Below, one piece after another: positions 35,651-64,000 of a DNA stretch of 64,000 nucleotides; position 1 is the stretch's first letter, and every line of letters starts with the position of its first letter. The position numbers were made by a program, and so were the translations under genes. A model generated the notes under the pieces. That model did not search any database. It saw only the letters and a program-made list of their open reading frames with translations, and was not told the DNA's origin. The DNA comes from Physcomitrium patens (lineage: Eukaryota > Streptophyta > Bryopsida > Funariales > Funariaceae), in NCBI RefSeq assembly GCF_000002425.4, contig NC_037262.1, forward strand, positions 10,825,243 to 10,889,242, given 5' to 3'.

Positions 35651-35683
<33 letters not shown>

Positions 35684-35688
35684 CAATG

Positions 35689-39262: not shown

Positions 39263-41584
39263 TTATTTAAAAAATTCCTGAACTTTCTTATTCAAAAAAA
39301 TTAAGTTACCACATGCTAATATCATAAGTAAGTCAATGAGGGTTGTACAAAAGAAGAACTTTGGTAAAGAAATCAACAAGGTTATATGTAGATTCAATTT
39401 TCTTGATCTTAAGTGTTTAATCAATAACCAAGTCATAGATATAACTAAAATATTTTGGATCAATATGCTTTTTCTTGTTACCTTTAATGAAACCAACTTA
39501 TATTTATGTAACACAAGTACTATTGTTTTTATGCAAAACAATTGGAGAATCATCATATAAAAGTCCATAGGTTATTTGAATGAATTTATCAATTGATTGC
39601 AATCAAATTCATTCTTGAGATACTTCATGTAAGATAATAATTTTAGCATGGTTGAATGAAATCCCAATTATTATTTATTTCACTAATTTCTATGATATTG
39701 TAGCTCAATGTCTTAAAAATACATAGCTTTTTTGAGATTTAGCTATTATAATATCAAATTTATATCTTACATTACAATATTTAACTAATTTTAGATTTAT
39801 AAATCATGTGTAATATATTTCCAAGTCTTTAGTACCTTTTCAATAATATAATAAGTATTTGATACCATTTAAATATCATAGTATTAGACGAACATTATCT
39901 TTTGCAAGAATATTAATTGTAAATGCAATATTTGATCTTATAGATGTGGCTAAATATAAAAGTGCTCCAACTGTCGTGAGGTATAGATACTGATCTTGCA
40001 ATATTTTCATCTCTTCCTTGTAGAGATGGTATAGATCATCATCATTACAACCACGTTTAAGCATTAGTATTAACAATCGATAAGTATCAATTATATTGAA
40101 TCTCTACAAGATTCATCTAATACACATTAATTGGTAGAAAAAAATGCTACCATCTCTGAGATGCTTAAGTTAAAGGCTATTACAGAAAGTTATTTTTTTT
40201 AGCATTTTCATCTCAAATTCATTGATAAGTAGGTTAGTAGCTGCAATATATGCAGATCTAGTATCTTCTAGATTAAAATCATTAACATATACAATGATGA
40301 TTAAAAAACTAATTTTATCATATTTAATAAATAAACAAGGCATTGGTGGATCACTTATAAACTTATTTATAATTAAATAATCTTAAAAATATTGATACTA
40401 CATGCATCTAGATTATTTTAGATCATAGAAGGCCTCGTGTAATTTAATACCATGATATCATCTTGGAATAGGTATATTTAGAGTTTTTATTTTTAAACAA
40501 AGTGGTTTTTTATATAAATATTTGCATTAAGAAAACTATATAGATATGCAGTTATCACATCCATGAGACACATCTCAAGAGGCATGGATTGTCATTCCAA
40601 TAATATATCAAAATGTAATTGAATCTATGACTAGAGAATATGAAGATTCATAATCAATGTCAAATCATTAGATAAATCTTTAGGCAACACAACGAGCTTT
40701 ATAGTAGATTATTTGATCTTTAGCATGTCACTTGAGTACTAATACCATCTTATATTCCATAAAGTGATATATAAGAGTGTCCACAATTGGATCAAAGACT
40801 TTCTTCTTATGCAACAAGGTATATTCTTTTTTAATGGTATTTTTCCATTTTATAGAGTCACTATGATGCATCGCTTCTTTGATGGTTTAAGGTTCAAGAT
40901 CCTCTTCCTTATAAAAAAGAGCTTTAGTAATCGTGCATGCAAATGATTCATCTATTATAATATATGGTCTATATCAAATAACATTTTTAGTACAATATAG
41001 AATAGATATTTTTTTTATTTAACTTGGTTTTATTCTTTATAATATTAAGATTTTCTATTACATGACGTAAAGATATAATTTACATCAACATATCATCATT
41101 ATTTGATGGTCTCGTAGATTTAGTAGGAATTTTTACAAAAAAATTATCAAAATTGGCACATATTATAATTTTTAATTTTTTTTTTATATGGTTGCTTATT
41201 TGGTCCACGAATCTTTTTAGTTTTTGATGTTATAACTTAAGATATATTAGTTAATAATATTGAAATCTGAATTGGTGCATTCTAAGCTTCATTAATCAAA
41301 ATTCTTGTAATCTAAGATGCATCATTGAAGCCATCAGGTATTTCATCCACAATCTATTTTAGATACAAAATCTTAGTAACTTTTATTTTAATCAAAGATT
41401 TTTTAGAATCAAGATTTATTATAAATATTTTTAGTATTCTAAATATAAGTATTGTATTTCTTTATTGATTAGATATCCATTCTCAAAGAGATGGAAACAC
41501 ATTTTCTTTAAATGATAATTTTAAAAAAGTACACACAATAATGTACCAACTAATGGATCAATAATACAAATAATGCTTGGTGAT
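39263..41584 (-). pseudogene. Ty1/Copia element, reverse transcriptase and RNase H half
   Basis: On the minus strand the order is the end of integrase with SPSII (41,584 downward), reverse transcriptase with PCLFIK and the catalytic box as IVYVND near 40,280 (family YVDD, second-last residue changed), the TVGALLYLATSIRSNIAF block (about 40,000-39,900), then RNase H with SPKFFF-like LPKFFF (about 39,350). Many stops and frameshifts. Its upstream half is at 63,175-64,000; the chromovirus at 41,585-63,170 lies between them. Between about 39,010 and 39,262 I see only decayed sequence that may be its 3' end. Confidence 0.85.
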
Positions 41585-41815
41585 TGTCATAGACATACAT
41601 AAGTATTTTAATAAATACCTATATAATTAGGTAGAAGTAGATAAAAGTAGATAAAAGTAGATTAATTTCATAAGACCTTCTAGAAAAGCTTCTTAGAAGC
41701 TTCATAGATATTACTTTGTCTTTATATATATTTGTGGTTAATTGATAGGTCAGAAACTAAGTCAACAAGTTAACCACGTATTGATAGCTTACAAAACAAA
41801 TTAACTATGTGACGC

Positions 41816-43192
41816 TATCATGTTGTAACACGACTATATGGTGAAAATATAAATAAAAAAGATTTTATTAATATTTAGCCATCTTGATTGATAAGAGCTC
41901 AAGATAATTTAAGAAAGCTTTATAAAAGCTTTTAGAGTATTTTCTTGTCTTAATAGCTAATAGATAAAAGCTTGTCATTAAATTTTCTTTCTAGATTGTA
42001 GAAACTATTTTATCACTTTAGAAAGGCCATAAATTAGTAAAAATAAGGTAGATGAAGTAAAAAAATGATTTGGTAGATAATAAGGTGAAATTGAGGATAG
42101 GAAAGTACTGAAAAACCTCTAGGATAAGTAGGATTGATATCCGGGAGACGACCATTTGTGGATTAGGATCGAAATCCAATCTCTAGCCATTAAAATGGCT
42201 GCTTAGGACAAAATAGGGAGGCATTTGGAGATCAGGATTTGGAATTGGAGAGCTAGCTTCAAGATCCTTCGAAAGATGTAAGACTTAGTTTCAAAGGGTT
42301 TGGAAGGACTTTGCAATCGTTGTTCAAAGTCAATGTTTGTATTGGTGATTTGAATTTTTTACAATAAAGTTAAGATAGTACTCTTGACTGTTTTGTAAAA
42401 TTAGAAAAACATCTGCAGTTGAAATTTTAGAAGTGTATAGATGGTTGAGTATGCCAAGTGCATGCAAAAATTTGTGTTAATCTAACGGTATAAATAGAGG
42501 ATATTTGATCATTAGTATAAAGAGGTATCAAAAGTTGGCAGATTGGAGTTGTTTAGGGTTTTTACAATATTTGGAGATCTACCTTCTGAAATAAAGTGAA
42601 TTTTAGCGTAGTAAGTCAAAAACTTAAAGGCGGAGCTGCACACAAAGTTTGAATGAGAATTAATGATTGGAGAAGAAGAAATTGCAATTCAAAGTTTGTC
42701 ATCAACTTTCTAGGCAGTGGTCAAGGAACATCAGTGTGTATTTATGGCATTTTCTTGCAATCTATAAGTTGGATTGGATTGAAACTTCTTGAGCATTTAG
42801 AAGACTTACAAAGAAACTAGTGGTAGAAGTTTTAGAACAATCGGACGGTCAGATTGAGAATTATAGCTTACCAAAGCTCATTGTTTAGGGTTAGGATTTA
42901 AAAATTTTAAAATTTAAAATTTAAAAAAAAAAGAAAAAGAAAAAGAAATAATAATAATAAAAATAAAACTAAAAAATAATAAAAGAATTTGTGCTTATAA
43001 TATCTTGAAGTTACTAAAATTAGTATTTCTAAGTACTTTGTATTGGAATTAAGCTTTTATATTGAAATCCAAAATAATTTATATATAGATGGTTGAAACC
43101 ACTAGACTACTTGGATACTTGCAAGACATTGTTTTATCTTCTACAATCAGATGCCCAGTGCATTCTCAAGCAAGATAGCATATAATATGATA
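41816..43192 (+). repeat. 5' LTR of the Ty3 element
   Basis: Begins TATCATGTTGTAACACGACT (TG of the expected TGTCG start changed to TA) and ends ATATGATA. It contains the conserved block with GATCGAAATCC at about 42,167. An A-rich tract with AATAATAATAA lies at about 42,920-42,965. Confidence 0.85.
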
Positions 43193-43261
43193 TAAGTGGT
43201 GAATCCGATGTGAAGGCTTCAGGTGGGAGGTATTGAAATTTGTTTATTTTTATTTTTATTT

Positions 43262-44507
43262 TATGGAGAATGAGAATAGGAAATTTGAAGGAGCTTTGGG
43301 AGGAGCTTCAAGTGGAGCTTTTTGTGGAGTTTCTTCTAAAAGACAAGGTATGTACATGGATCCATCCATTGCTAGTATGTTTCAAGCCTTAACATTATCT
43401 ATGCAGCAACAACAAAGCAATGATTACAAAGAAGCTTTAGGAACCAAAGCATTGCAAGCAGTGGTCAATAAAATTGATCAATTTGATGGAAAGGATATTT
43501 CAAAGTATTTAAGATGTTATGTTTGAAAAATGGAATTAAATTGGATTTTTGAGAAGAAGATGGTTGAATTATTTAGACTTGCCATGATACCGGAGATAAG
43601 AGAGCATATTACATCAATTATAGAACATTATAGAAATTCATGGGAGATTTTTTCACATACATTAAAAGACAAATATTTCTTAGATGACACTAATCATGTT
43701 ACTAAGAAATTATTTCTAGAATGAATTGAGCGGCCTAATAAGAATTTGCAAGCAACAGAGCTACTAAGGAAATTTGAGAGGCAGTATTCTCAATTATCGA
43801 AGGTAGAAAAATTGACATTAGAGCCGAATAAGGTTGAATTATTTCTTCAAGCTGTTGATAGAGAATTACAAGGGAAATTGGAGTTGCTTCTTGAAGTCAA
43901 AGAAGAAGATGAAAGATTGACAACAAAGTGAAAAAATGTTGAAAATGTGGTGGATTTGCTTGCAAAAAGAGAAAGGAGGAAGGATAGGAGTAATATTCCA
44001 AAAGCAGTACAAGCACCTAAAAATCCAGTACATACAACACGATCGACAATGCATATTATTCAACCTTCAACATCTTTTTCGAAGAAAGGAGAGATGGGGA
44101 TTGAAGAAATTATACGTGGAATGCCAGATCTTCAAATCAAATTGGTAAGATTTGAAGAAAATACTTCTACAAACAATTTGAAGAATGTTTCAAAACAAGG
44201 GTATGTACAAAGATGTATTTGGTGTGATGATGCTTCACATACTAGGAAGGATTGCAATGAATTTAATAATATTGTACAGCAAGGAGTTATTTATTGGAAA
44301 GATGGAAAGATTGCATTAAATAATATAGAGGATCTCCTTCAAATCAATTTTGGCAAAGGACGTATGAGAGCATTGATTCAAGATTATTTAATAGAACATG
44401 GAATAGCTACACGAGAGAGTGCAAGTTATGGTGCTAGAGTAGATGATGACTTTGGTGGAAGTATAGAAACTAGTGAATTTTGGGCTTCTGCCATTTCTAC
44501 AATGTAA
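43262..44507 (+). pseudogene. Gag of the Ty3 element, with stops
   Basis: Four consecutive plus-strand frames form one gag. The N terminus is Gly/Ser-rich (KFEGALGGASSGAFCG), followed by the capsid-like part with QQAT...RKFERQYSQLSKVEK and KVELFLQAVDRELQGKLE. A zinc knuckle of the C-x2-C-x4-H-x4-C type (CIWCDDASHTRKDC) lies at about 44,217-44,258. In-frame stops at about 43,524, 43,722 and 43,929 are TGA. A frame open to 44,507 continues past the knuckle. Confidence 0.8.
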
Positions 44508-44516
44508 AAAGGAAAA

Positions 44517-47500
44517 ATGCCTCAGGAAGCATTATTGAAGACTACAGCTACAATACGAGGAGCAACAGGTTGGAAAGATCCTGCTGAGTCTCTTTCAGTT
44601 CATGCATATATTGCTAAGAGCCAACATGAAGCTTTGATGGAAGAAAAGAGAGGAAGAAATTTTGATAATATAAGAGAAAGAAATTCTTCTAAGAGGCAAA
44701 CTCGAAGAGACAAGGCTCGTGAGGCAGCTTCACAAGAATTGCCTATAAAGGATACTTCACCAGCATTGGAAGAAAAAACAAAGGAAACAAAAGATAAGGA
44801 TAAATCAATTGCTTATAAGCTACTTTCTGATATTAAAGCGGCAACAAATTGAAAAGGGGTGTTGGAAGAACGTATATTAAATACTAAGGTGGAATTCACA
44901 TTGAAAGAAATTTTAAGAATTGCAAAGAAGGAGTTTCATGATATTATCATTGACAACATTAAGCGAAAGAGATAATTAATGGGCGAAGCTGGAATGAATC
45001 ATGCTATTGATGCAAGATTATATAAAGATGAAGAAAAGGTTGATAATGGTTACAAGCAATCAACAAATGAAAAGAATGGGTATAATCAACGAGTATGTTT
45101 CAAAGATTATAGTAATAAGGAAATGGAAGCTTCAAGCCATTATACTTGAAAGTATTGGGCAAGGGCAACTACTGAAGTATTGGTGAAAGTAGAAGATATA
45201 AAAAAACCAATTGTTGCTTTAGTTGACCATGGTTCTGAAATAAATCTTATGTCTAAAGATCTTCATAAGAAGCAGAAATGGCCAATTGATATGGAACATG
45301 GATGGGTAATATGAGCAACTAATAAGACACAAGGCAAACTATATGGAGGTTGCCCAGATGTCAATATTCGGATTGGAGATGTTGTGACAAAACAACATTT
45401 CTTTGTTCAAGATACAACGTCTTATCCATTGATTTTAGGACAACCTTATATTATGACAACACGGATGGAAACAAAAGTACTTGACAATGGTTCTGCTTAT
45501 GCAAGGGTACGTAGTAAAGATGGAAGGAAAGTTGTATAATTTCTAACAGTACCTCCTAATCATCAATGAAATCGAGATAGGTTGAGGGAGAAACCATTGC
45601 CAAGGGTTGTTGAAGAATTTAAGGATTTTGGAGAAGTACCACTATAAAGCAGGATTATGAAGGTATAAAAGAAGTGATACTCTCACGAGATATAGCTGCC
45701 TTTGATGCGAATTTGTTTGATATTTTTGAGAATGGAAATATTATGTATAAGAAAGTTGATGATTTTAAAAGAAAAGAAAGAAAAAGATTATATAGTATTG
45801 AAAGGGAATTACGCAAGTTAGGGACATTAGAAGATGATGAGAGGATTTTAGGTGTTCATGAAGAAAATGGATTGGAGGATTCTTTGGAATTAATTGTATC
45901 TATTGGATTAAGAGATAATGATAAGATTGTGGAAATTCATTCGAGGGAGGTTTATACTATACTTGAGTCTTTTCAAGCATTAGAATTTATTGTAGAGACA
46001 AAATATAAAACAGTAGATAAAAAGGTAAAATGTGTTGCCGGTCCTTTACCAGAAGATTTTAAGGAACAAATAGAAGAAGCATCAAAAGAAGAGAGTTTAA
46101 AAGATCCAAAGAAGATTGGACATCAGTTTACAAAGGAGACTTTTGAAGAATTGAAGATTGGATGTGATGGTTCTTTATTTCCAACAAAAATTGAATATTT
46201 AAAAAAAATGCTTACAAAACGAGATAAATCATTTGCCTTTGGATCTGGTGAAATAGGATGTGTAGATCCTAATGTTATTGCTCCCATGGTTATCTTTACA
46301 ATACCTCATGTGCCTTGAAACTTAAGGCCAATTTCCGTGCCGAGGGCACATTTATCTAAATTGGTGGAATTATTGAAAGAAAAGATGCAAATGAAAATTT
46401 TGGAGCCTTCTTTTGCTCCATATTCTAGTCATTGGTTTACGATACCTAAAAAAAATGGATTTTTACGTTTTATTCAAGGTATGAAGCTAATGAATGTAGT
46501 AAATATAAGAAATGCATGTATAAGACCTTTAGTAGATGAATTTGTAGAAGCATTTGCGGGAAGGGTAATTTATTCAATGTGTGATTTATATTCAGGTTAT
46601 GATCAATTTCAACTTGTACATGGGAGTAGAGATCTAACAACAATGAAAACGCCACTTGGATTACTTAAAATGTGTACTCTCCCTAAAGGTGCTACTAACT
46701 CAGTTGCACATATGATGAATGGGATGAACAAGGTATTAAGAGACTTCATTCTTGAAAAAACTATGCCATTTTTTAGATGATGTTCCAATCAAAGGATGTA
46801 AAGAAGGAGAAAAAGATGAAACTTTAGATGAGAGAGGGTGTCGCAAATGTGTTGTTGATCATATATAAGATTGTGAAAAAATTTTAACTCGACTTGAAGA
46901 GGATCATCTTATACTTTCAGGAGGAAAATCTATATTTGGAATACAAGAAGTTCTTATTGTTGGATATTTGTATGGATTTTATGGGAGAAAGCCAGATCCA
47001 AGCAAAGTTGATGCAATTGGAAGGATGAAAGATTCATGTGACTTTTTAACAAAAATACGCAAGTTTTTAGGGGCTTGTATATTTTATCATATATGGATTC
47101 CTCATTATGCTCATGTAGCGGATCCATTGTATGAATTATTACATAAGGATTATGAATTTAAATGAAAAAAAAAGCATACTGAAGCAATGCAGAAGCCAAA
47201 GGTGTTATTGATGATATCTCCAATTTTAAGAAGAATTGATTAGGACTGTAATAGAAAAGTAATTCTTACTGTGGATACTAGTCCTATTGCTATTGGATGG
47301 ACTGTGGGTCAAGATGATTCAAGTGGAAATAGATTTGCAGTTCGATTTGGAGCTAAAGTTTTAAGTACTCATCAACGTGCATATTCGAAAGTCAAAAGAA
47401 AACTTTGGGGAGTTATTTCGGCTATGAAAGCTGAAAGAGATTATTTGATTGGTGCAGTAGTAGTATTTGAAACAGATTGCTTGCCATTGCTTGGAATGAT

Positions 47501-47816
47501 TACTAATTGTTCAATGCCAGATATTGCAATGTTAAAATAGATTGTTTATATTAAGTCATTAAATCCAAAATTTAAGCATGTTACAGGAAAAGATAATTTA
47601 GTAGCAGACATGCTATCTCGAGCAAGATATGAAAGAGAAGATGAAATGGTTGAAAACATTGATGATGTTGGATCAAAACTCTATTCAATATCAAATCTTA
47701 ACAAAGAAGACAAGCTATTTTTTAAAGAATTTTATGAAGGAAAATTATTGGATATTGATCACTACTTGAATACCTTCATTAAACAAAAAAATTGGTTTAC
47801 AAAAAAATTTAAATAA
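44517..47816 (+). pseudogene. Protease, reverse transcriptase and RNase H of the Ty3 element, broken
   Basis: A Lys/Glu-rich linker (44,517-44,852) leads to a retroviral-type protease with LVDHGSEINLM at about 45,219, where the usual Asp-Ser/Thr-Gly is Asp-His-Gly, and YPLILGQPYI near 45,424. Reverse transcriptase runs from about 46,180: the HWFTIPKKNG box, CDLYSGYDQFQ, KTPLGLLKM and the catalytic FLDD at about 46,770. A run of six T just before FLDD puts it out of frame with the upstream part. RNase H starts LTVDTSPIAIGWTVGQDD (47,268) and ends with HVTGKDNLVADMLSRA. No full-length frame remains. Confidence 0.85.
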
Positions 47817-49127
47817 ATAAGAAAAAAGACATATGGATTTTTGCTTCAAGAAGGATTCTTATAGAAGAGACCAAAGAAAGGAATTGGAATGCAACAAAGA
47901 GTGATAGGCAATAAGGAAGAGAAACAAAAATTATTAAAGGGGTTTCATGATAGTTTATAGACAGGACATAGAGGAATTTGGGCTATTTTTGCTAAACTTA
48001 AGGAACAATATTGGTGGAGAAATATGTATTGAGATGTCCTCTTATTTGTAGAGTCATGTGAAATTTGTCAAGCGTATTCTAATATACGACATCAAGATGA
48101 TCTTCATCTTACATATCCTCTAGCTATTCATTTTAAATGGATTGTTGATTTGGTTATTATGCCAGTCGGGATATGGCAAATGAGATATTTGGTCTTAGCT
48201 CATGAAGATTTATTAAATCAAGTAGAAAGAAGAGCATTGAGAACAAAATCTATTGAATGAATTTGTAGATTTTTTCTTGAAGATGTTATTTGCCACTACG
48301 GATGTATAAGAAAAATCACTGCAGATCGTGGAGAATTAAATGCACAAGAAGCTCATGAATTCTTTGAAAGATGTGAAGTTAAACTATCACTAACTACTAC
48401 TTATAATCCTGAAGGAAATGCAAAAAGTGAACGTAGACACCCATCGATTGTGAAAGCATTAGTTAAAGCTTGTAATGGGAAGGTTAGAGAATGGCCATGA
48501 CTTTTGTCATTTACATTATGGGCTGATCGAATAACTCATAGCTCAGTAATGAGATATATGCCTATTGAGCTTATGATAGGTCAAAAACCTATTATGCTAA
48601 TTGAAGAAAAAGTACCTACTTAGAGTGTGCTACCATAGGAAGATGGATTGACAAGAGAAGAACTTTTAATAGCTATTAAAATTCAATAATTAGAGCAAAG
48701 ATTGAAAGATGTACAAATAACATTAGAAAGGTTAAAAAGAGCGAGGTTACAAAACAAGGCACGATTTGACAAGCAACATTGATTGAGGCCTAAAGCAATT
48801 GAAGAAGGTAATTGGGTCCTGGTCTATGATAGTAGCTTGGACAATCAACATAATACTTTAAAGAAGTTTTCTAAATGATGGTTTGGACTGTATGTGATAA
48901 CAACTATTCATGATAATGCAACTTACTTATTGCGAGAGTTAGATGGAACAAGGTTAAAAATACCAATTGTAGGGAAGCAAGTAAAAATATTTAAACAAAG
49001 ATACATAAAAATAAATATAAAAGACCTTGGTGAAGACATAGATATTCTTCAACAAGAAGATGAATTTGACTTGGATAGCAAAAATGATGAAGAAGATTTG
49101 GACGAAGACTTGGAGAACATATTATGA
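47817..49127 (+). pseudogene. Integrase of the Ty3 element, broken
   Basis: The zinc-binding part shows H-x3-H and C-x2-C (GFHDSL ... TGHRGIW, CEICQ) at about 47,940-48,070. The catalytic core has KWIVDLV (48,137), DRGELNAQEAHEFFE (48,327-48,371, where the family has the second Asp) and NPEGNAKSERRH with the Glu at about 48,430. Stops occur at many sites. The C-terminal part (48,894-49,127) is open and ends in an acidic Asp/Glu-rich tail. Confidence 0.8.
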
Positions 49128-49150
49128 ATTAAACAACAACTAGGTTATTT

Positions 49151-49189
49151 GGTGCATACCAGAGGATGCACCGGTTTAGAGGGGGTAGA
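49151..49189 (+). promoter_or_regulatory. Polypurine tract with small inverted repeat
   Basis: AGAGGGGGTAGA directly precedes the 3' LTR and would prime plus-strand synthesis. GGTGCAT / ATGCACC (49151-49157, 49166-49172) form an inverted repeat just upstream. A related GCGCATACC...GGAGGATAC block sits at the same place in the pol-less element. Confidence 0.7.
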
Positions 49190-50576
49190 TGTCATGTTGT
49201 AACATGACTATATGGTGAAAATATAAATGAAGAAGATTTTATTAATATTTAGCTATCTTAGTTGATAAGACCTCAAGATAATTTAAGAAGGCTTTATAAA
49301 AGCTTTTAGAGTATTTTCATGTCTTAATAGCTAATAAATAAAAGCTTGTCATTAAATTTTCTTTCTAGATTGTAGAAACTATTTTATCACTTTAAAAAGG
49401 CCACAAATTAGTAAAAATAAGGTAGATGAAGTAAAAAAATGATTTGGTAGATAATAAGGTGAAATTGAGGATAGGAAAGTGTTGAAAAACCTCTAGGATA
49501 AGTAGGATTGATATCCGGGAGATGACCGTTTGTGAGTCAGGGTCGAAATCCAACCTCTAGCTACTAAAATGACTGCTTAGGATAAAATAAGGAGGCATTT
49601 GGAGATCGGGATTTGGAATCGGAGAGCTAGCTTCAAGATCCTTCAAAAGATGTAAGACTTAGTTTCAAAGGGTTCAGAAGGACTTTGCAATCGTTGTTCA
49701 AAGTCAGTGTTTGTATTGGTGATTTGAATTTTTTGCAATAAAGTTATAGCTAGTACTCTTAACTGTTTTGTAAAATTAGAAAAACATCTGCAGTTGAAAT
49801 TTTAGAAGTGTATAGATGGTTGAGTATGCCAAGTGCATGCAAAAATTTGTGTTAATCTAACGGTACTAATAGAGGATATTTGATCATTAGTATAAAGAGG
49901 TATCAAAAGTTGGCAGATTAGGGTTGTTTAGGGTTTTTGTAATATTTGGAGATCTACCATCTAAAATAAGATGAATTTTAGCGTAGTAAGTCAAAAATTT
50001 AAAGGCAGAGCTGCACACAAAGTTTGAATGAGAATTAACGATTGAAGAAGGAGAAATTACAATTCAAAGTTTGTCATCAACTTTCTAGGCGGTTGTCAAG
50101 GGACATCAGTGTGCATTTACGGCGTTTTCTTACAATCTGTAAGTTAGATTGGATTGAAACTTCTTGAGCATTTAGAAGACTTGCAAAGAAACTAGTGGTA
50201 GAAGTTTTAGAACAATCGGATAGTTAAATTGAGAATTACAACTTGCTGAAGCTCATTGTCTAGGATTAGGGTTTAAAAATTAAAAAATTAAAAAATAAAA
50301 AAAAAAGAAAAAGAAAAAAAAGAATAATAATAATAATAAAATAAAATAAAATTAAAAAATAATAAAAGAATTTGTACTTATAATATCTTGAAGTTACTAA
50401 AAATAGTATTTCTAAGTACTTTATATTAAGATTAAGCTTTTATATTGAAATCCAAAATAGTTTGTATTTAGATGGTTGAAACCCACTAAATTACTTGAAT
50501 ACTTGCAAGATATTGTTTTATCTTCTACAGCTAGATGCCCGGTGCATTCTCAAGCAAGATAGTACATAATATGGCA
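49190..50576 (+). repeat. 3' LTR of the Ty3 element
   Basis: Begins TGTCATGTTGTAACATGACT and ends ATATGGCA. It aligns with the 5' LTR along its whole length; differences are scattered and mostly transitions. Confidence 0.85.
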
Positions 50577-51317: not shown

Positions 51318-52898
51318 TGTCGTATTACGTGTTGTCTTGTTCGGGAATACACTGGGTATCTGGCTGTGGAAGGTATAGTTGTTTTCGCAAATAACAAAGA
51401 AACCCTAATAGATTTTATCCATGTATGAAGAATATAATTGAAATATCAATTTCCAAGTATTTAAAAACACTCCTCATAGTCATTTTAACCATACAATATT
51501 CCAATTGCTTCATTTCTTTTATAATTAAGTTGTTTTTGTTTTTCTTAACAAGCCCTGATCCTAGCCAATGAGCTTTGACAAGCTATAACTTTTGATCCAA
51601 CCGTCCACTTAGTGTGTAATTTTGCACCCAAATACCAGTATAAGCCTTCTATATGCTCACAAAATTTCAGTGCAACACAACTTACAGATTGCAAGAAAAC
51701 GCCCAAAAACCGCATTGATGACACTCGGCCGCAACCTTGAAATTTGATGTAGAAACTCCAGAAGTGATTTCTCCTTTGTCAACCGTTAACTCCAGCTCAA
51801 AATTGAATAGCCGCTTGATCTCCAAATCTTCTATTACCAAGCCAAAAATTACATCGATCCAACTAGTAGATCTTCAGATATCACAGAAATCCTATCCAAC
51901 CCTAGACTGCCAACTTCCGACAACCCTTTGTATTAAAATCCAGATATCTCTTGATTGCATCGTTAGATTAACACAAATTTTTGTATACACTTTGCACACC
52001 CAACTATCCACACAATACCAAATTTTGATCCATAGATGCTACACGACTTGCACAAACTGATTGAGAATGCAAACCATCAATGTTTTATATAAAATCTGAA
52101 ACACCAAAATAAACACTGACTTTGAGCAGCGATTGCTCTCCCCTCACAAACCCTAATGAAACCAAACTAGTGACCTTGAAAAGAGCTTGAAGCTAGCTCT
52201 TCGACCCAAAAAACCCGATCTGAAAAAAAACCCCCCATTTCTTAACCTTCCTCCCCTTTAACCCTAATTCTCTCCTCTTTCAAACCCTAGCCTCTGAATT
52301 TCTTCAATCTTCCGTTTTGGATCCGGAATTGGCTCCTTCTGTCTTGGATCCGGAATTGGCTCCGTTGTCAGAGCTTTCTCCTTTGTTTTTACCTTTAAGA
52401 GATCCTTTTACCGAAAGGACGTCCCTGGAACAGCATAAAGGACGGAACAGCCTGAAACGGAATCGGAGCCCTATAATTGGGACATCATTGAGTCGCCCGA
52501 CCAATTCAGGTCTCATATTGGATAAGAGGCCCATAGTAGGACCTCGTAGTAAGACCTAGATGTTCCCACAATTGGACCGCATTGGGCTGCTCGACCAATT
52601 TAGGTCTCATATTGGGTAAGAGGACCTGGATTGAATGTCTTGAAATTGGATCCAATTGGCTCTTTGAACTAGGCTCACCCGTCATTGAATTGGTCCTTTC
52701 CCATCCTGTTGACTCCCGTTATTGGAATCAAACAGAGCATTTCAGTAAGCTCCGGCTGACTGTAACGGGATGACTAAACCTAGCCTCTCAGTATTTGCAC
52801 TGGAATTGGTCGTTGCTCCCAATATTCGAGGTAACTGAACATTAATAAAAGTCCTCTTTCTTTATATTTTCACAGTATACTCGTGTTACAACACGACA
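51318..52898 (-). mobile_element. Solo LTR, youngest-looking copy
   Basis: 1,581 bases with ends TGTCGT...ACGACA, a perfect 6-base terminal inverted repeat. Both flanks are ACGT (51314-51317, 52899-52902), an exact 4-base target duplication. It is GC-richer than its neighbours and still contains CG dinucleotides, and it lacks the long TTTAGGATT array. A 20-base direct duplication (TTGGATCCGGAATTGGCTCC) occurs at 52317-52336 and 52344-52363. Internal open frames here are artefacts of this less decayed sequence. Confidence 0.87.
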
Positions 52899-53249
52899 AC
52901 GTATATTGACCTCACAACCAAATCTAAGGAGTTTTGCTTCTACAAGTATGATGGAGACAAAGATTAGTATGTCTGAGAAGTTTGATGGAACAAGAACAAA
53001 ATTTTGAGGATTTTTACAACAAATCAAGCTTTATCTAAGGTTTCATCCTTTCCAATACCTCGATGGATTTACTCAAGTTGGATTCATATGCATACTTCTA
53101 TAAAAAAAATGCTCTTTTGATTTGTACCTTCAATGGAAAAAGATTCGTAACTCTTTTATGATTTGAATTCATTCTTAGAAGTATTTATGGACACATTCAG
53201 AGAAAGTAATTGAGAAAGAGCAGCAAAGACCAAGCTCTTATCTTTGCGG

Positions 53250-54954
53250 TGTCGTATTACATGGCAATTGGCTTGAAAATGCATGAAGCACTTAACTGTG
53301 GAAGATAAAAAGAAAATTGCAACAACAAGTCTAAATAATTTTAATATATTTTAAAAAAAATTACAATTAAAAATTAATAAATACAATCAAACATTGATCT
53401 AATTCAATTAAAATTTCAAAAGAATTATACAAGAAACACAAAAAATTCCTAGAGATGCTTTAAAGAATTCATAAAAAAATAATATAGAAATTCAAAAATA
53501 TACTAAAATAGAAATTTTAATAAAATATTAAAATATAAATCTTAATTAAATTCTAATCAAATTCTAATCAAATCATAATCAAATCCTAATCAAATCCTAA
53601 TCGAATCTTAAATAAATCTTAAATAAATCCTAATCAAAGCTTATATAAATTCTAATCAAATCCTAAATAAATCCTAGTCAAATCCTAAACAAAATCTAAT
53701 CAAATTATAGTCAAATCCTAACCAAATCTTAATCAAATCCTAAATAAATCTTAACCAAATTCTAATCAAATTCTAAATAAATCCTAGTTAAATCATAATA
53801 AATCCTAGTCAAATCCTAAATAAATCTTAAATAAGTCCTAATTAAATCCTATTCATATCTTAATCAAACCTTAATAAAATCCTAGTCAAATCCTAAACAA
53901 ATCCTAATCAATCCCAAGTAATTTCTATAGCAGATTTAAACCTCAACAACTAATGAATGAACTGTTGATTTAAACTCAAATTTTGCAAATTTCTTAAAAA
54001 TTAAGTTGAAAAAAAGCACAAAAAAAATTAAAAATGATCAAAATTACCAAATAGACGATAACCTCAAAAATATGCTCAAGTGTCGGCTGGCCTCCTGCTT
54101 TGACCTTGATGCTAATCTCCCAAAGAAAATTTCTTCTGATTGAACCATTACTTTGCTTCCAAATTTTATATACTTATTAGAAATCAAGCTGACTACCTTT
54201 ATAAAAAAGAATGCTTAAATTTAACCAATGGTTTTATAGATATTTGAGAAAACCTCACTAGTCTTCAAAACCCAAAATTCTAAGACCATAACTCACAAAA
54301 ATCTTCATGTCTTTTATTCTAACTATTCAATCAAATCTAAATTTATAGCACATATGAAGCACAACTACCCCTACAAACCTAGAAATTTTCATCTAAAGAT
54401 TTATTGCCAAAATTATAAAATTCTCCAAAAAGTATCTTCTATTTCATTTCACAAATCTAGAATTACCTAAAACAAACCTTGATTTTGCAAAGCTCTTTCA
54501 AAGTCAATACAAATCCAAAGAACTCCAAATTAATGCCTATTGACACTTTATTAAGTCTTCTCTCTAATCCTATTCTCCAATCTACCAAAAAATCCTAGAA
54601 TCATTGTCAAGGCTTGGTTTTGTGCCTCAAGGTCTGATTTCGACCTTGGTTCATAATTACCCATCTTTGGGTATTAATATCTAGGTTTTTTAGGTAGTTT
54701 TTATTAAAATTTATTCTTTACTTTCTTCTAAAGATGCTAATATCATTCATTTTTCTAATCTACTTTGTTTTTCCTTATTTATGGCCCTACAAAGTAAGTA
54801 GAAGTTACTTTTTAAAAAAAGAAATATTACTACTATAAATTTTACTACCTTCCTATCTTTTATCCATATTTTTTATTTTATCTTTTATTTTGGCTTTTCT
54901 ATAATAAGATTTATATTATCATCTTTTATCATATAGTCATTTTATAACATGACA
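53250..54954 (-). mobile_element. Solo LTR in chromovirus gag
   Basis: 1,705 bases starting TGTCGTATTAC and ending ATAACATGACA. Flanks are GCGG (53246-53249) and ACAG (54955-54958), which differ only by two G-to-A changes. It carries a CCTAAA-type array at about 53,540-53,910 and the conserved GATTTCGACC block at about 54,637. Confidence 0.8.
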
Positions 54955-54958
54955 ACAG

Positions 54959-55127
54959 TGTGGAATTGTGGTTCAGCTACTATGTAAAAATAATATATTT
55001 ATATATTTAATATACAATTTAGTTAGCAAGATCATGAGAGCCTTATTACTGGATTTTAATTGATTGTAGAATTTAGTTAAATTATTATTTTAAAAGAAAA
55101 TTATTTAAAAGGATTACTATTAGAATT

Positions 55128-55158
<31 letters not shown>

Positions 55159-56598
55159 TTTTTGATAGTGACTTTTGAAATTAGTTTTATTGGTAGTAAT
55201 TTTTGTATATTTAGAGTCATCTTTGTTAGACATTGGTTAGCCTTAAAGTTTTATTTTGGTTCTTTAATTTGGTATTTAAGGCAAATGATATGTAAATCTT
55301 TTATAAAAAAGGATTGAAGAGGGATTTTGGTAGAAAAAAAGGTAATTTGGATACCCATTTGAATGAATGGAGATGGATGATATAAATCTCCATTCCTATT
55401 GGTCAAAAATCATAACCAATGGGATTCAAGGAGGTTGCACGAGGCCTTATTAGGAAATAGGGTTAGTCTTTCAGAAATATTCGAACATTGGAGGCTAGGG
55501 TCAGCAAGTTCAGGTTTTTGGCTATATTTTGGGTACAATTTTTGAGTCCTTTGGAGTTTTTATGAAGGAGATATAGGCGCTCAAAGTTAAGGAATCAGTT
55601 TTCTATCTAGTGTCACTCTTTTGGGTATAACGCACATGTATAGAAAGCCACAAAGAATCAACAAATAGAGTTGGAGAGAAAATTTTTTTGGCTACATTTT
55701 ATATATATTTTTTGATGAATTCTAAGTTGGAATAAAGGAGATATTGGAAGTTGAAGTCAGTGCTTGGAATCTAACGAGTAGTAAGTAACCCGAATTCCTA
55801 GTGGTTGTGTTTTGAGCTATATCTTATGCAATTTGACAAGATTTTTACTAAAATATTTCTAAAAATGTATATGTTTATGTAAAAAAACTTTATACCTAAG
55901 TTTTGTGGCATTTGGATTTTGGATTTGTGAGATATAAAGAAAATAATACTTAGATGCTTGTGAATTAGGGTTTTAGAGTACCTACTAAGATTTTTGAATT
56001 TCCAGACGATTGGTAGCAAATTTACAATTGAATTTTTTTGTGGTAATATTTAAGGATAAACAATATATTATTTGTAAATTTGAAAAAAATTGAATAGTTG
56101 AATTAAGAGATATAAATTTCTAAAATTTAAAAAGAAAAAATCTTTTGTAGGAAAAATATGTTTTGAAAGGATCTTATTATAATTTGAGCATTTTATACAA
56201 ATTAAAGAGGTTTTTTGGAAGTCAAGACTTTATGTATATGTTGAAGATGGATAGATAGAGCTTTGATTAAAGTTTGATATAAAGACGAGCTTTTGAGAAG
56301 AGATTATAGATTTTCTTTGAAATTATTAAAAATCTAACTTGATAGCAAATAGCTAGTTATGATTTGCTATAGCCAAGAATGTTAGGAAATTTCTAGATAT
56401 TTTAGAAAGCCTTATATATAAACCTTCTTAAATATAAAAGATTTTACTAGTACAATATCTTTTTGATATTTTTGTATTTTTTTGTCTTTTATTTTAAAGA
56501 TTAAATTACTTATTGGAGCTTTGCCAATAAGTTAAATTTAAACTTTCTATAGCTAGGTATCTAGTGTATTTTCAGATAAAAAACCATGCAATACAATA
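54959..56598 (+). mobile_element. Second solo LTR at the same target, different family
   Basis: 1,640 bases from TGTGGAATTG to about ACAATA, flanked by ACAG (54955-54958) and ATGG (56599-56602), both one or two transitions from GCGG. It contains a (TA)n tract (about 55,129-55,152) and an LTR-end-like block CTATAGCTAGGTATCTAGTG near 56,550. Gag reading resumes at 56,603. Exact ends are less sure than for its neighbour. Confidence 0.6.
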
Positions 56599-57225
56599 AT
56601 GGCAAGGATCATAGTCAGTTACTATATATGCTACTAAATTCCAAAACCTCATTTATGAGGTAGACTAGAATGACAAAACCTTTATCAATCAATTTCGATA
56701 AGAGTTGAAGGATAGTATCAAAGACTTATTATAGACAATGCAAAAGGCATAATCTTCTAAATAATTTATTGCTTAAGCAATTGCATGTGACAATCAATTA
56801 TCTAAAAAATGTCAAGAATAAAGATTTGGCTAGAGAAGAATAAATCAAATAATGACAACAACTCCTAAATTTTTAAAAACTTATTCATTAAGGCCAGAAC
56901 CAATACAAATTGATATGGTATGTTTTAAATCCTTCATAGAGTAAGAAAAGAGTGAACAAAATCAAGAGGGCTTATGCTTATTTTATGAAAAAACTAAACA
57001 TACTACTCAATATTATCCAAAAAAACAATGCAATTACAAAATAAGAAGCACAATTGCCAAAGAAGATAATGTCTCAAAAAATAAGTTGCTCCAACTACAA
57101 TAGGAACCATGCGGCTAAAATCATCTACAATACCTAGTAAAGGTCCTATTCTCTTCTTAGATTCTTCATCTTGTTTCACAATAGAAGTCTGTTTAGGATA
57201 AAAAAATCACAAAGTCTTAGCCTTT

Positions 57226-57465
57226 TTGGATTCAAGAGCTTCAACATGTTTTATAGATGAAGACTTTGTCAAAAAACAAGATATATCCTTAGTTAAGAAA
57301 ATCAAACCTATGCATGTAGAAGTAATAGATGGACGTTCATTATCTTCAAAAGATATTACATATAAAACTATTTTTATAGAAGTAGCAACTAGTGGTTACA
57401 ATAGTTTAGTAATATTTAATGTAATTAAATTTCTTTCCAATTCAATTATTTTAGGATTATTGTAG
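57226..57465 (+). pseudogene. Protease of the chromovirus
   Basis: Retropepsin domain: SRASTCFIDEDFVKK, VEVIDGRSLSS, SLVIFNVIKF, ILGL. The catalytic motif, normally Asp-Ser-Gly, reads Asp-Ser-Arg, a single G-to-A change, so the copy is inactive. It would process Gag-Pol in the particle. Confidence 0.82.
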
Positions 57466-57699: not shown

Positions 57700-58960
57700 A
57701 AGACTTCTTAGATATTTTTTAAAAGAAGAATGTAGATATTCTTCCAAAGCATCGTCCTTATGATTGTTGTATCAATCTTCGAGACAAAACTCAACAATTT
57801 TGGACCAATCTATAGCCTATCACAAAATGAATTAGCTGCACTTAAAGAATATATTGATGAGAACTTAGCTAAGAACTTTATACGCCATTCTAAATTTCCA
57901 GGCAAAGCTCTAATCTTATTTTTGAAGAAAAAAGACGAATCTCTATTGATGTCTATGGACTATTGAGGACTTAAAAAAATCACCATCAAGAATAGATATT
58001 ATCTACCTTTGATTTTAGGACTTTTTGATTAACTAAATAAAGCAAAGATCTATACAAAAATAGATCTAGAAGAAGTATATAACTTAGTCTGCATCTAAAA
58101 AAGAGATGAATAGAAGACTACTTTTCAAATTAGGTATAGACATTTCAAATATAATGTCATGCCTTTTGGACTCACAAATATACCACCTACTTTTTAATAT
58201 CTAATGAATGATGTCTTTTGTGAATTTCTTCATAATTTTGTCATTTGTTATTTGGACGACATTTTAATCTATTCTAAGAAGTTAAAAGAACATGAAGTTC
58301 ATATTTTTTGTATATTATAAAAACTAAGAGATACAAAATTATATGCAAAGATGGAAAAGTTTGTATTCCATACTACTCAAATTGGCTTTTTGGGATACAT
58401 CATTTCTAATGAAGGCCTTATAATGGATCCAAAGAAAGTCCAAACTATCATAGATTAGAAGATTCTAATAACAGTAAGAGATGTGCAATGATTTTTGAGT
58501 TTTGCCAATTATTACCAAATCTTTATGAAGAACTTTTTTCAAGTTGCAGCTCTACTTATATGTTTGACTTGAACTGAATCAAAAAGCTGAAGTATCATTT
58601 CTTACTTTAAAAAAAGAATTTAGTTTTGTACCAATTTTATACTATATTAATTTTTTTAAAGCATTCTTTATAGAAACAAATGCATCAAACTTTGCCTAGG
58701 GTGTAGTATTGTCACAAATAGCAATAGATGATAAATTTCATTTAGTAGCTTTTTATTCCAAAAATGTTTTTAAGAAGAAAGATTAACTATAAGATCCACA
58801 ATAAAGAACTTTTTTCAATTATAGATTCAATTTAACAATAGCATCATTATCTAAAAGGTGCTTCAAGTCGAGTCACAATATATTAAAATCACAAGAACCT
58901 CGACTATTTCATGTCAGCTTATATTTTGAATTGTCACTAAGCTTGTTGGAGCATGTCATT
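57700..58960 (+). pseudogene. Reverse transcriptase and RNase H of the chromovirus
   Basis: In order: LPKHRPYDC, KTIKNRYYLPL-like ITIKNRYYLPL, AKIYTKIDLEE, the VMPFGLTN box, the catalytic YLDDILIYSK (YLDD at 58,249-58,260), then the connection and a RNase H part with FIETNASNFA (about 58,673) and LVAFYSKNV. At least five stops lie in the reverse transcriptase alone, at codons that are Arg, Gln or Trp in the family, each one or two transitions away. RNase H is the least well preserved part. Confidence 0.82.
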
Positions 58961-60957
58961 ATGAAGATTTAATTTTAAAATCACATATTGACCTCAAAAA
59001 CAACAAGGTTTATTTGTTGCTCTTTCTAGATGCTCTTATTTGGTATCAAAAGAAAGACACGTATCTTTTGATCAACAAAAAACAATCCTCTTAAAGCTAG
59101 AGTATTTTCATCTTCAAGCAATGAAATCAACACTGACTTTTAATTCGACCTTTGTCAAATAAATTCAATCAAGTATGTCCTTTGATCTTCTTACTCATGA
59201 TATCAAGAATCTTTCTTCTAAGTCTTATGATGTTTTCAAGTTTGAATTTAAAAATAACCTACTCTATTTTAAAAGATGCTCATATATTCCAAAAAGAAAA
59301 GTATGTTTACGTATTTTTCAAGCATGTCACAACTTTCTAGCAGTAGGATATTTTGGATATAATAAGACTTTAGAGCTTATATTCAAAGCTTTTGGTGGCC
59401 GAAAATATAAAAGGAGGTAAAAGACTTTGTCTAGTCATATGATATTTGTTCAAGATGAAAAATTCCTTGTCATCAATCTTATGGACTACTTCAAGTATTG
59501 CCTATACTTAAACAATCATGGTCTTTCATTTCTTTGGATTTTATTACGTATTTTTTAGGTTCAAGTTTATATGACTTTATATTTGTAATTGTAGATCGTT
59601 TCACCAAAATGGCACATTTTGTACTATGTATAAAATCTATTTTAGATAAAAAAAAATAACTAAATTTTTCATTGATAATATCTATCACTGTCGTGTTGTA
59701 AGATTACTATATGGTAAAAAATAATAATATGGATCTTATTATAGAAGAGCCAAGTTAAAAAAGATAAATTAAAAAAATATGAATAAAAGATAGGTAGATA
59801 GTAAAACTTTTAATAGTAATATTATTTTTTTAAAAAAGTGACTTCTATTTATTTTGTAGGACCATAAAAAAGGCAAAATAAGATAGATTAGAAAAATAAA
59901 AGATATAAGCATATGTAAGAGAGAATGAAGAATTGGTTTTAGTAAAATTTACTTCAAAAGGGACAAAAATGGATACCCAAAGATGACTGGTCATCAACTA
60001 AGGTCGAAATGAGACCCTGAGGTACAAAACTAAGCCTTAATGATGATTTTGGGGTTCTTTGGTTGATTAAAGAATGGGATTGGAGAGCAAACTTGATAGG
60101 ATTTCTATAAGCATTGAATTTGGAGGCTTTAGGTAGATGATGACTTTCTAAGAGCTTTGTGAAATTGAGGTTGTTTTTGGTGACTCTTGATTTTTAGAAA
60201 ATAAAATAGAGTTAGCATTTTGGACAACTTCAGAAGTTTGGTAATAGATTTACATGAGAAATTTTTTGGATTTGTGGATGTAGTTGTGTTAAATTTGTGC
60301 TATAGATTTGGATTTGATCGAATAGTTAGATTAAAAAGCATAAAGGTTTTTGTGGGTTATGGTCTCAGAATTCTAGGTTATAAAGATCAATGAGGTTTTC
60401 TTACATATTTGTCAATCTGCCAATTAGATTGAAGTAAAAAATTTCACAAAGGTAGTTAGCTTGATTTCTAATAAGTATATAAATTTTGGAAGCAATTTAA
60501 TAGTTCAATCAGGAGTAATTGGCTCTAGGAGATTGGCATCAAGGTCAGAGAAGGAGGTCGGCGAACACCTAAGCACATTTTTGAGATTATCCTCTATTTG
60601 GTAATTCCGATCTTTTTCAATTTTTTTATGCTTATTTTTAATCTCAATAATAAAGAATGTATAAAATTTAAATTAAAATCAATGATTCAAACATTAGTTA
60701 TTAAATTTTAAAAACTGTTATAAGGTTGTTAGAAATTTTTTTGAGATTTAAAAAATTGATCAGGATTTGATTAGGATTAGGATTTGGTTAGGATTAGGAT
60801 TTGATTTGGATTTCTTTAGGATTTCTTTAGGAATTTTTTAAGATTCTTTGAGGATTCTTTTGAATTTCTTTAAGATCTCTTTAGAATTCTTTAAGCTTCT
60901 TTAGGATTTTTTTTTTTTTATATTTTTTTTATAATTTATCTCAAAAATAAAATAAAA

Positions 60958-61000
<43 letters not shown>

Positions 61001-61560
61001 TGGACTTAATTGATACTTGATTATATTTATTAAGCTTTTATAGTAATTTATATATAATTTTATTAGAGTGGTTAGGACTTATTGTTACAAATTCATTTTA
61101 TCTTCCACAGTCAAGTTTATTGGGCATTCTTAAGTAATATGTCATCATTCTCATAGATTGCCAAAAGATATTATATTGGATAGGAGGATTCAATTTGTAT
61201 TAAGCTTTTAGAAAATCTTATTCAAGATTCTGAAGATGGATATGAAATTTTCTTTAGCTTTTCATCCTCAAACTACTAAGCAAATAGAATGGATAAATCA
61301 AGTTTTGGAGTAGTATTTGAGATGTACCATCAACTATCATCAAGATGATTGGATAATTCTTTGTCATTGGCAGAGTTTGTATACAATAATTTAGTACATT
61401 CTTCTACTTAATAAACACCTTTTTTTGCTAATTATGGTTATCAACTATAACTTGATATTTTTGATTTTTTAAAAATTAATAATCTTGTGGCAAAACAAGA
61501 TTAGCAAATCATTTATCAGAGCTATATATAATAATAAAGATACAATTAAAAGAAGCTGAA
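58961..61560 (+). pseudogene. Integrase of the chromovirus, split by a solo LTR
   Basis: Before the insert: CSYIPKRKVCLRIFQACHNF with GYFGYNKTLELI (59,270-59,390), then SLDFIT-like SFISLDFIT, FIVIVDRFTKMAHFV (catalytic Asp, about 59,580-59,620) and FIDNIY. After the insert at 61,149: HRLPKDIILDRR (second Asp), AFHPQTTKQIEWINQ (Glu, about 61,260-61,300) and YLRC. The frame continues exactly when the insert and one duplication are left out. Confidence 0.82.
59689..61144 (+). mobile_element. Solo LTR in chromovirus integrase
   Basis: 1,456 bases from TGTCGTGTTGTAAGATTACT to TAATATGTCA. Flanks TCAC (59685-59688) and TCAT (61145-61148) are a 4-base duplication with one C-to-T change. It contains the conserved block AGGTCGAAATGAGACC at about 60,001, a short TTAGGATT array (60,750-60,850) and (AAT)n at about 60,960-61,000. 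Confidence 0.85.
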
Positions 61561-61739
61561 AAATAAAAAAAAGACCAACGTAGATGCCTATTACAAAAAA
61601 CAATAATAATTCAATGTGGATGACAAGGTATTATTACTTTGTCGCAATATCAAGACTACTCGTCTTTGTAATAAGTTGGACTATTGTAAGCTGTGACCTT
61701 TTCCTAATTGTAAATAATTCACTCTTATTGCTTATCAAT

Positions 61740-62045
61740 TACATATACTAGAGTTTATGAAGATCCACTTTGTATTTCATGTATCTCTTCTTAAGCCATA
61801 TAAGATAGTGAATACCTCAGAAAGAAGACAAATGCCACTTCTTCTTATAGAAGTAGATAATAATCAAGAGTTCAAGGTAGAAGAAGTCTTAGATTCAAGA
61901 CAACACCAAAAGAGATTAGAATATCTTGTTCATTGGCGTAGATATGATATTAATGAACGCTTATAGGAGCCAACAAAAAATCTTATAAATACAACAAAGA
62001 ATCTTGTAAATACAACAAAGAGAGTTGAAGCTTTTCATTCATGAC
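61740..62045 (+). pseudogene. Integrase C terminus with chromodomain
   Basis: KIHFVFHVSLLKPY marks the end of the integrase, then EFKVEEVLDSRQHQKRLEYL and VHWRRYDINERL form the chromodomain, ending with RVEAFHS. The aromatic/Trp core is visible. A TAG at 61,964 replaces the codon before EPTKNL. Chromodomains direct integration to marked chromatin. Confidence 0.85.
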
Positions 62046-62631: not shown

Positions 62632-63170
62632 TATCACAAACATACATAGATATTCTAGTAAATATCTATATGGTCAAGTAGGAATAGATAAAAGTAAATA
62701 AAAATAGATAAAAGTAGATTAATTTCATAAGATCTTCTAGAAAAGCTGTAATGACACTTTTTTGACTTTATATATATTTGTAGTTGATTAATAAGTTAGA
62801 AACTTGGTCAACAAGTTGACCACATATTGATAGCTTGTAGAATAAGCTAACTATGTGGTACACATATAGAAAACTTACCTTGTAAATTAAGATATGTGTC
62901 TTGCAAAGTCAACATGTTTTGGAGGTCTTATAAGATAATGTCATATAGTTTTTAGTTAAGAATATATATAGAAGCAAGAGTGAAGCCTTCTTCAATCTTA
63001 TCAATGCCTTTCTACTCTTTAGTCTTGTTCTAAGATTTTCTAATCTTCTTATTTTTGGCAATAACCATTCTAGTTTAATATTATATCATCTTTAAGTGAC
63101 TTTCTAGTTCATTTTAGTGATACATGAGTATATTAAGGATTTTTTTTCCTTAAGATTCATATCCTTGATA
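62632..63170 (+). repeat. 3' LTR of the chromovirus
   Basis: 539 bases from TATCACAAACATACATAG (TG changed to TA) to CCTTGATA. It is the uninterrupted reference for the split 5' LTR. A TATATATAG box followed by AAGCAAGAGTGAAG at about 62,960 looks like the transcription start region. Confidence 0.85.
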
Positions 63171-63175
63171 GTGAT

Positions 63176-64000
63176 TTAAAACCAACATATATGGCTTCTT
63201 ATCAATAAATTTCAATCATGCAGTCTTGAGGTTTTGCTTGAAGAAGTAGTGGTTAAATAATGAGTTGTATATATCTTTTAAATGACTCTTCAAGTCCATT
63301 TTGAGCATGTTCATATAGAATACAATATATCAATTCAATCCCTATTATAATATAATAATCTTCAAAAGACTTTGTTACAAATTCTTTTGCATTCTTTATA
63401 TGCAATGTTTTGATAGGATAATCAAGAAAATGAGCTTGAAAATGAATAAGCATAGATATTAGATTGGAAAACACCTTATTTTGAATTGATAATAATGAAA
63501 CATGTGATTATTTACTTGATGCATCAATAAAGTCCAAAAAATAATAAAATGGTCCAAATATTAAATTAATAGGACCACAAATACTAATATGCAACCTTTT
63601 AAGCATTTGTGATAATTCTTGTGGGGGTTTCCAAATCAAAAGTAGAGCAATCATCTTGCCTTGTACACATATATGATATAGTTCTATAGAATCTATATTT
63701 GCAGATTTTAAATTATATCCAATTATACATTGAATTATCTTCCAAAATAATGTGAATCTTGGATATCTCAAATATCTATATTAGAAATAAATACAATTCT
63801 TTGTAATAGATGATGTAAAATTAAATATAATTGCCTTCATGCTTATGAGCACTTGTCCATGTTTATATAATTTTTTTTTAGACTTTGAAATATTAAATAC
63901 ATGACATTTTAGAACTATGATTCCTATAGGATAATCTTTTGCATTATGCAAAAGTAGCTCATTTTGTTTCTTTGCAAGAAGTAGATAGGATACAAGATCA
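63176..64000 (-). pseudogene. Ty1/Copia element, integrase half
   Basis: Minus-strand integrase: SICGPINLIFGPFYYFLDFIDASSK (first catalytic Asp region, 63,600-63,508), then SHVSLLSIQN, DYPIKTLHIKNAKEF (second catalytic block, about 63,420-63,380), EHAQNGLEESF (Glu block, about 63,300) and, after a deletion, YVGFK ending at the insertion point. The part to the right of 63,771 is too decayed to assign. The element continues beyond the window. Confidence 0.83.

Follow-up and report, generated by a model that had tools for sequence, protein, structure and literature searches.

A nest of LTR retrotransposons in Physcomitrium patens with CpG-centred insertions stacked on a shared four-base target

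Within a 64,000-nucleotide stretch of the Physcomitrium patens genome (NC_037262.1, positions 10,825,243 to 10,889,242; hereafter the window), our data indicated a nest of long terminal repeat (LTR) retrotransposons that was almost certainly assembled by successive insertions: a Copia element first, then a chromodomain-bearing Ty3 element (chromovirus), and then CpG-targeting, Phygy-like Ty3 elements that renewed their own 4-bp target. This reading is supported because the insertions carry target site duplications (TSDs), reading frames resume once the insertions are removed, and uninterrupted copies of the host elements occur in the same genome.

Results

The outermost junction can be read base by base. 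As the original prediction had stated, removal of positions 41585-63170 together with one of two identical GTGAT copies (Table 1) joins the Copia integrase residues YVGFK to SPSII in frame; translated across the junction, the two 45-bp flanks give ...YVGFKSPSII..., with two stop codons slightly upstream. A second copy of the same Copia family (LTR of about 277 bp), situated in the sequence that follows the window (L015), about 5.7-9.4 kb into it, is continuous near L015:7716, the place where the window Copia is broken. The Copia part had been described as a fragment, but its 3' LTR begins near 29106, is interrupted by another element (29277-39001) and resumes at 39002, and its 5' end lies about 1.25 kb past the window; the minus-strand element, inserts included, therefore runs from about 29106 to 65250. 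The RVT_2 match in the Copia part was weak (E = 0.0066, below the cut-off), the order of integrase before reverse transcriptase (RT) fits Copia, and the integrase-side pieces 63253-63507 and 63508-63780 matched no Pfam family.

The two chromovirus LTRs align with each other, with LTR1 split at 41815/50577 by the innermost full element. A chromodomain follows the integrase at 61718-61966 (PF00385, 26.4 bits against a cut-off of 25.1). Other domains were less clear: a protease-like piece at 57202-57465 was weak (E = 0.0088), integrase pieces were found at about 59163-59688 and from 61149 with a weak zinc-binding match (E = 0.0046), and the RT piece at 57736-57966 matched no Pfam family. At least 39 further scored candidates related to the chromovirus were present in the genome, with best segments 77-82% identical.

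The predicted content of the chromovirus, one full Ty3 element and four solo LTRs, was located in its entirety. At three joins from which solo LTRs had been removed, the middle two being removed together, the gag or integrase frame resumed, with in-frame stops from decay present in two of the three; together with the alignment of the split LTR1 with LTR2, this bore out the expectation that a frame or an LTR alignment would resume. For three of the solos, the window contains other LTRs that align with them, and the fourth (54959-56598) has 31 near-full-length relatives in the genome at 79-84%. Duplications of 4 bp, some with copies differing by transitions, accompany the inner family, and duplications of 5 bp accompany the chromovirus and the 29277-39001 element. 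The targets in the window (ACGC/ATGT, ACGT/ACGT, GCGG/ACAG/ATGG and TCAC/TCAT) were all consistent with NCGN. The claim that each inner insertion has a target duplication of its own stood in that duplications were found, but solos 53250-54954 and 54959-56598 have one target in common, present as GCGG, ACAG and ATGG.

The genome surveyed for related copies comprised 470,438,890 bases in 101 contigs; all comparison copies came from this same genome, and copy numbers are lower bounds, as only the best candidates were scored per search. For the empty-site comparison, 11 chromovirus copies out of the 39 other scored candidates were taken in, and the adjoining of flanks was computed by extending local alignments to the end of 200-base flanks. 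This alignment of related genomic copies, a check put forward with the original prediction, yielded empty sites at each solo position: the flanks adjoined in 9 of the 11 copies at 51318-52898 (two lacked the flanks), in 8 at the shared site of 53250-56598 (one was rearranged and two lacked one flank), and in all 11 at 59689-61144. For the full element at 41816-50576, the empty site was seen only in LTR2 of the same chromovirus.

The stack at 53250-56598 could be understood as a single composite insertion rather than two stacked ones, since both solos touch the same 4-bp target and the gag frame was restored only by their joint removal. We consider this very unlikely, because the two solos are separated by a third target copy and the second LTR occurs separately elsewhere, in 31 other copies, 16 of which are themselves flanked by 4-bp duplications if transitions are allowed. 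If, instead, an insertion renews its NCGN target, facing LTR ends are predicted to lie exactly 4 bp apart. Genome-wide, patterns that allowed 0-12 bases between facing ends matched at 6, 15 and 16 sites, depending on the orientation; the spacer was 4 at 5/6, 13/15 and 10/16 of them (28/37 in total), so that exact 4-bp spacing recurs in all three orientations. The reversed control patterns gave 2+2, 2+3 and 1+1 matches. Among the 28 four-mers, 26 had CG, CA or TG in the middle, the others being one TA and one CT. In the flank survey described below, a neighbouring family LTR end (at most one mismatch) lay beside 3 of the 69 surveyed copies, two of which (L055 and L087) fit the 4-bp spacer by eye. 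In a stack on C26, the outer target was read by eye as CCAT at the right end vs CCGT in the middle, and no left end could be located in the piece examined.

The flank survey covered 38 other places of the inner family (25 solo LTRs, 8 5' LTRs and 5 3' LTRs) and 31 near-full-length other places of the fourth-solo family, whose shorter matches were omitted; the 5' and 3' LTRs contributed one flank only and were excluded from the duplication count. Among the 25 inner-family solos, a 4-bp duplication was found up to transitions in 21 and exactly in 4, none matched over 5 bp and two matched over 6 bp, and 4-bp flanks taken from different copies matched in 22%. The middle dinucleotide was CG, CA or TG in 32/33 left flanks (CG in 17, CA or TG in 15) and in 26/30 right flanks (CG in 9), with only 3-8 left and 1-9 right flanks having these dinucleotides at neighbouring offsets. 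The fourth-solo family tended the same way, with CG, CA or TG in 25/31 left and 20/31 right flanks. The flank survey and the empty sites in other copies exclude chance.

A CpG in the duplication might simply mirror CpG-rich or methylated host DNA, with no choice of target, and the old host elements were probably richer in CpG before decay. This explanation is likewise very unlikely, as the same copies had no CG at offsets of 4, 8, 12 or 20 bp (0/33 left and 0/30 right flanks at each), against 17/33 and 9/30 in the duplication, and as the 5-bp elements of the window target GTGAT and ACTAC. That a chimeric assembly or a segmental rearrangement joined unrelated elements, with duplications arising by chance, is scarcely credible even in AT-rich repeat DNA prone to misassembly (GC 0.22-0.34), given that the Copia and chromovirus-internal junctions lie at LTR ends with equal or transition-differing target copies, that frames resume, and that other copies of the hosts run on without a break at the corresponding position.

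The originally predicted order, in which Copia precedes the chromovirus and the chromovirus precedes the 1.4-1.7 kb LTR family, follows from the nesting. Four layers had been claimed between 39263 and 64000; we found three (Copia, chromovirus and inner family), and four are apparent only in the left branch, that is, in the element inside the Copia 3' LTR. LTR divergence, in Kimura two-parameter (K2P) distances, was lowest for the inner pair of 41816-50576 (106/1377 sites different, K2P 0.083; 92.3% alike) and higher for the chromovirus pair (94/511 different, K2P 0.22; 417/511 identical, about 82%), a difference that was significant (Fisher p = 2e-10). In the inner pair, transitions outnumbered transversions by about 7 to 1, an excess as expected for methylated DNA. 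The corresponding difference in the left branch, between the LTR pair of 29277-39001 (114/581 different, K2P 0.236) and that of the Phygy-like element within it (72/669 different, K2P 0.119), was likewise significant (p = 1.5e-5).

The 29277-39001 element contains further inner-type LTRs and a Phygy-like element at 33334-38267, and an iMet-like primer site was seen by eye adjoining 38421. One LTR, beginning at 29902, is cut by another LTR that runs from 30240 to about 32356: its alignment ends at position 341 of the reference LTR and stands at position 670 after 327 further bases, which themselves gave no alignment in that register. Judged from these alignments, the left branch seems to be four levels deep, with one LTR inside another within the 29277-39001 element, itself inside Copia. 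A 7-bp inverted end at first suggested that 38268-39001 was the Copia LTR and that Copia lay within the Phygy-like element at 33334-38267; this reading was dropped, as the LTR clock disagreed and the sequence beyond the window revealed the true LTR and the 29277-39001 element.

Within the full inner element, an RVT_1 match at 46.3 kb (E = 2.5e-5; 24.5 bits, below the cut-off of 29.6) is followed by RT_RNaseH at 47.2 kb (E = 3.2e-13, above the cut-off) and by rve at 48.3 kb (E = 0.048, below the cut-off), whose position after RNase H fits integrase. The C-terminal piece 48879-49127 gave no Chromo match, although the pieces were scanned apart and a broken domain could escape. The primer site, TGGTGAATCCGATGTGAA, fits tRNA-Trp after C-to-T decay, and was matched to a pattern that we take to be that of tRNA-Trp. 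A Trp-type primer with at most two mismatches beyond decay was found in 8/38 genome copies of the family. Relatives of the inner RT were also found at six loci in cyanobacterial bins, with 68-71% of RT residues in common; 3/6 had a Trp-type primer site, the pattern being exact in L004 and L005 and showing one G-to-A change in L001. Five of these loci (L001-L005) came from one Trichormus bin and L006 from an uncultured Synechococcales bin, and the contigs with plant-type Ty3 RT in the Trichormus bin are probably Azolla host DNA. Among six stretches from viral contigs, no relative of the inner RT was confirmed.

Table 1. Positions in the window of the nested elements, their target copies and the primer site
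Feature	Position	Strand	Remarks
Copia 3' LTR, left part	29106-29276	-	Aligns with the Copia 5' LTR in the flank sequence L015
Second element inside Copia 3' LTR	29277-39001	-	LTRs 29277-29872 and 38421-39001; TSD ACTAC at 29272-29276 and 39002-39006
Copia remainder: rest of 3' LTR (to about 39079), RNase H and RT remnants, integrase end	39002-41584	-	Weak RVT_2; uninterrupted copy in L015
Chromovirus left target copy GTGAT	41580-41584	.	Right copy identical
Chromovirus	41585-63170	+	LTR1 41585-41815 plus 50577-50877; LTR2 62632-63170
Full Phygy-like Ty3 element in chromovirus LTR1	41816-50576	+	LTRs 41816-43192 and 49190-50576; TSD ACGC (41812-41815) / ATGT (50577-50580), two transitions apart
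Primer site TGGTGAATCCGATGTGAA	43197-43214	+	Fits tRNA-Trp after C-to-T decay
Solo LTR	51318-52898	-	TSD ACGT/ACGT
Solo LTR	53250-54954	-	TSD GCGG (53246-53249) / ACAG (54955-54958)
Solo LTR, related family	54959-56598	+	TSD ACAG / ATGG (56599-56602)
Solo LTR	59689-61144	+	TSD TCAC (59685-59688) / TCAT (61145-61148)
Chromovirus right target copy GTGAT	63171-63175	.	Left copy identical
Copia integrase side of the break	63171-64000	-	Continues outside the window; 5' LTR near L015:1134-1393

Discussion

In our reading, the history of the nest began with insertion of the Copia element, after which the chromodomain Ty3 element entered the Copia integrase gene. Members of the Phygy-like family then entered the chromovirus, one in an LTR and others in the gag and integrase regions, and four of these insertions were probably reduced to solo LTRs by recombination between their LTRs. 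The Phygy-like integrase would presumably be the agent of the CpG choice, cutting with a 4-bp stagger centred on CpG, and the duplicated NCGN would again be targetable, which may have brought two elements to a single GCGG, whose copies are seen today as GCGG, ACAG and ATGG. Many of the target CpGs subsequently became TpG or CpA, probably through decay of methylated cytosine.

Several observations weigh against this succession of insertions or against the renewal of targets. The Copia LTR pair (32/222 sites different, K2P 0.16) is less diverged than that of its guest chromovirus (K2P 0.22), a difference that was not significant (p = 0.20), and the alignment of the Copia LTRs is in part unreliable. 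Transversions ran in the expected direction (0.059 in Copia vs 0.033 in the chromovirus; p = 0.15). The proposal that divergence be compared layer by layer thus separated the inner pair from the chromovirus pair but left Copia and chromovirus unordered, and the LTR clock cannot order these two. Nesting is better evidence of age than the clock, because about a quarter of nested elements exceed their hosts in LTR divergence according to the account in PMC7251063. To the right of the broken site, only about 23 bases of the L015 Copia copy align; the alignment then continues after a stretch in which the two copies differ in length by about 170 bases. No target copies were recognised for the window Copia itself, which is flanked by GACTT on the left and TTCTT on the right, and the flanks of the LTR at 30240 (CCAT and TGCG, respectively) do not match either. 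The GCGG site is rearranged in one chromovirus copy of the 11 (L030), and the target of 51318-52898 is AAGT in 8 of the 9 copies showing it and AATT in the ninth, with ACGT only in the window copy. In the flank survey, the 4-bp match was found in only 16/31 copies of the fourth-solo family (20% between different copies), L044 and L045, whose flanks are identical, probably represent a single locus counted twice, and L047 was classed as a solo and resembles a 3' LTR. Finally, 9 of the 37 facing-end sites have a spacer of 1 (8 sites) or 8 (one site), and a few of the spacer-4 sites, which carry the same string, may go back to a single event.

The spacer-1 facing ends are unexplained by renewal of a 4-bp target. 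Strings resembling facing LTR 3' ends with this spacer were recorded at C3:25389494, C8:3139915, C8:3239512, C15:15889373, C16:9602882, C24:11088304 and two further positions.

Going by sequence features, the inner family fits Phygy, a Ty3 clade from Physcomitrella, because of its 4-bp, CpG-centred duplications, its tRNA-Trp-type primer and the absence of a detected chromodomain. As described in PMC6317226, Phygy likewise is a non-chromovirus with a coding region filling nearly the whole internal part and a published insertion preference for NCGN, and tRNA-Trp is among the primers named there for non-chromoviruses. The commonest Phygy duplication is 4 bp according to PMC6911290, and the inner family agrees with such a duplication carrying NCGN. 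The assignment of the inner element was made by these described features. Phygy was defined from Physcomitrella patens, the only species in which the PMC6317226 survey records the clade, whereas relatives of the inner family were also found in the cyanobacterial bins, a range wider than that one species. The chromovirus, for its part, resembles the Tcn1 clade and RLG1, the main chromodomain Ty3 element of the transposable element-rich regions of P. patens in the accounts of PMC6317226, PMC3350952 and PMC7466625, in having a chromodomain at the integrase end and many genome copies. This likeness is by description. For the self-primer of the Tcn1 clade, the best LTR complement in the chromovirus was reached by 15-77% of shuffles (lengths 9-13) and was not significant.

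Nested LTR retrotransposons are well documented in plants: PMC6911290 and PMC7251063, which both name P. patens, report analyses of 1491 and 4126 nested pairs, respectively. Our nest resembles those described there in having younger elements inside older ones, and the stack on a shared target is the added point. Tandem LTR retrotransposons, as described in PMC11899658, are similar in that LTRs of the same family lie side by side; in those tandems, however, neighbouring units share LTRs after one insertion, whereas a 4-bp target copy separates the complete LTRs observed here, indicating two insertions. A narrow literature search found no report of shared-target stacking and, for NCGN in retrotransposons, PMC6317226 as the only source among the papers listed. 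The CpG target rule is therefore already known, and shared-target stacking is modestly new.

The nest is textbook in kind, and its value lies in the base-level check against uninterrupted copies from the same genome; it serves best to illustrate, at the level of single bases, how CpG-targeted insertions renew their own target. It also offers a testable rule, in which a CpG-targeting retrotransposon that copies its own target would leave stacks parted by exactly four bases, a spacing that the genome shows. A more far-reaching version, which we regard as doubtful, is that the Phygy-like integrase reads CpG, perhaps methyl-CpG, directly and enters heterochromatin without a chromodomain, with elements stacking in islands until deamination erases the CpG. 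If this were true, target copies would mark the period in which elements were still entering each island, and an integrase sensing CpG itself would have a route into methylated chromatin that needs no chromodomain.

Several features of the LTRs themselves were also recorded. The family of the 54959-56598 LTR is a separate one, for which a first look at the genome gave 6,562 candidates, and no full element of it was recognised in the window. A short inverted repeat of the TGTCGTGTTGTAACACGAC type opens several inner-family LTRs (49190-49208, 35066-35048 and 52898-52880); DNA folding of nine LTR starts gave a strong hairpin in some, with 3/9 unfolded, and the relatives L003 and L004 (another bin) have a different, also hairpin-forming sequence at the LTR start. 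Degenerate arrays of AAATCCTAA-like units were seen by eye in family LTRs at 31285-32016, 33640-34030, 37870-38265 and 53500-53920, with a length that varies by copy.

Over the window as a whole, the Rfam search gave no matches, the tRNA scan gave no genes, and most of the short open reading frame pieces gave no informative Pfam family. The AT-rich retrotransposon block lies to the right of 26 kb, and plant genes (LSD1-like, ferredoxin and HPAT) lie to the left of it at a GC content of about 0.41. The LSD1-like histone demethylase gene, with SWIRM and amine oxidase domains, occupies 7495-10556, about 16 kb from the repeat block.

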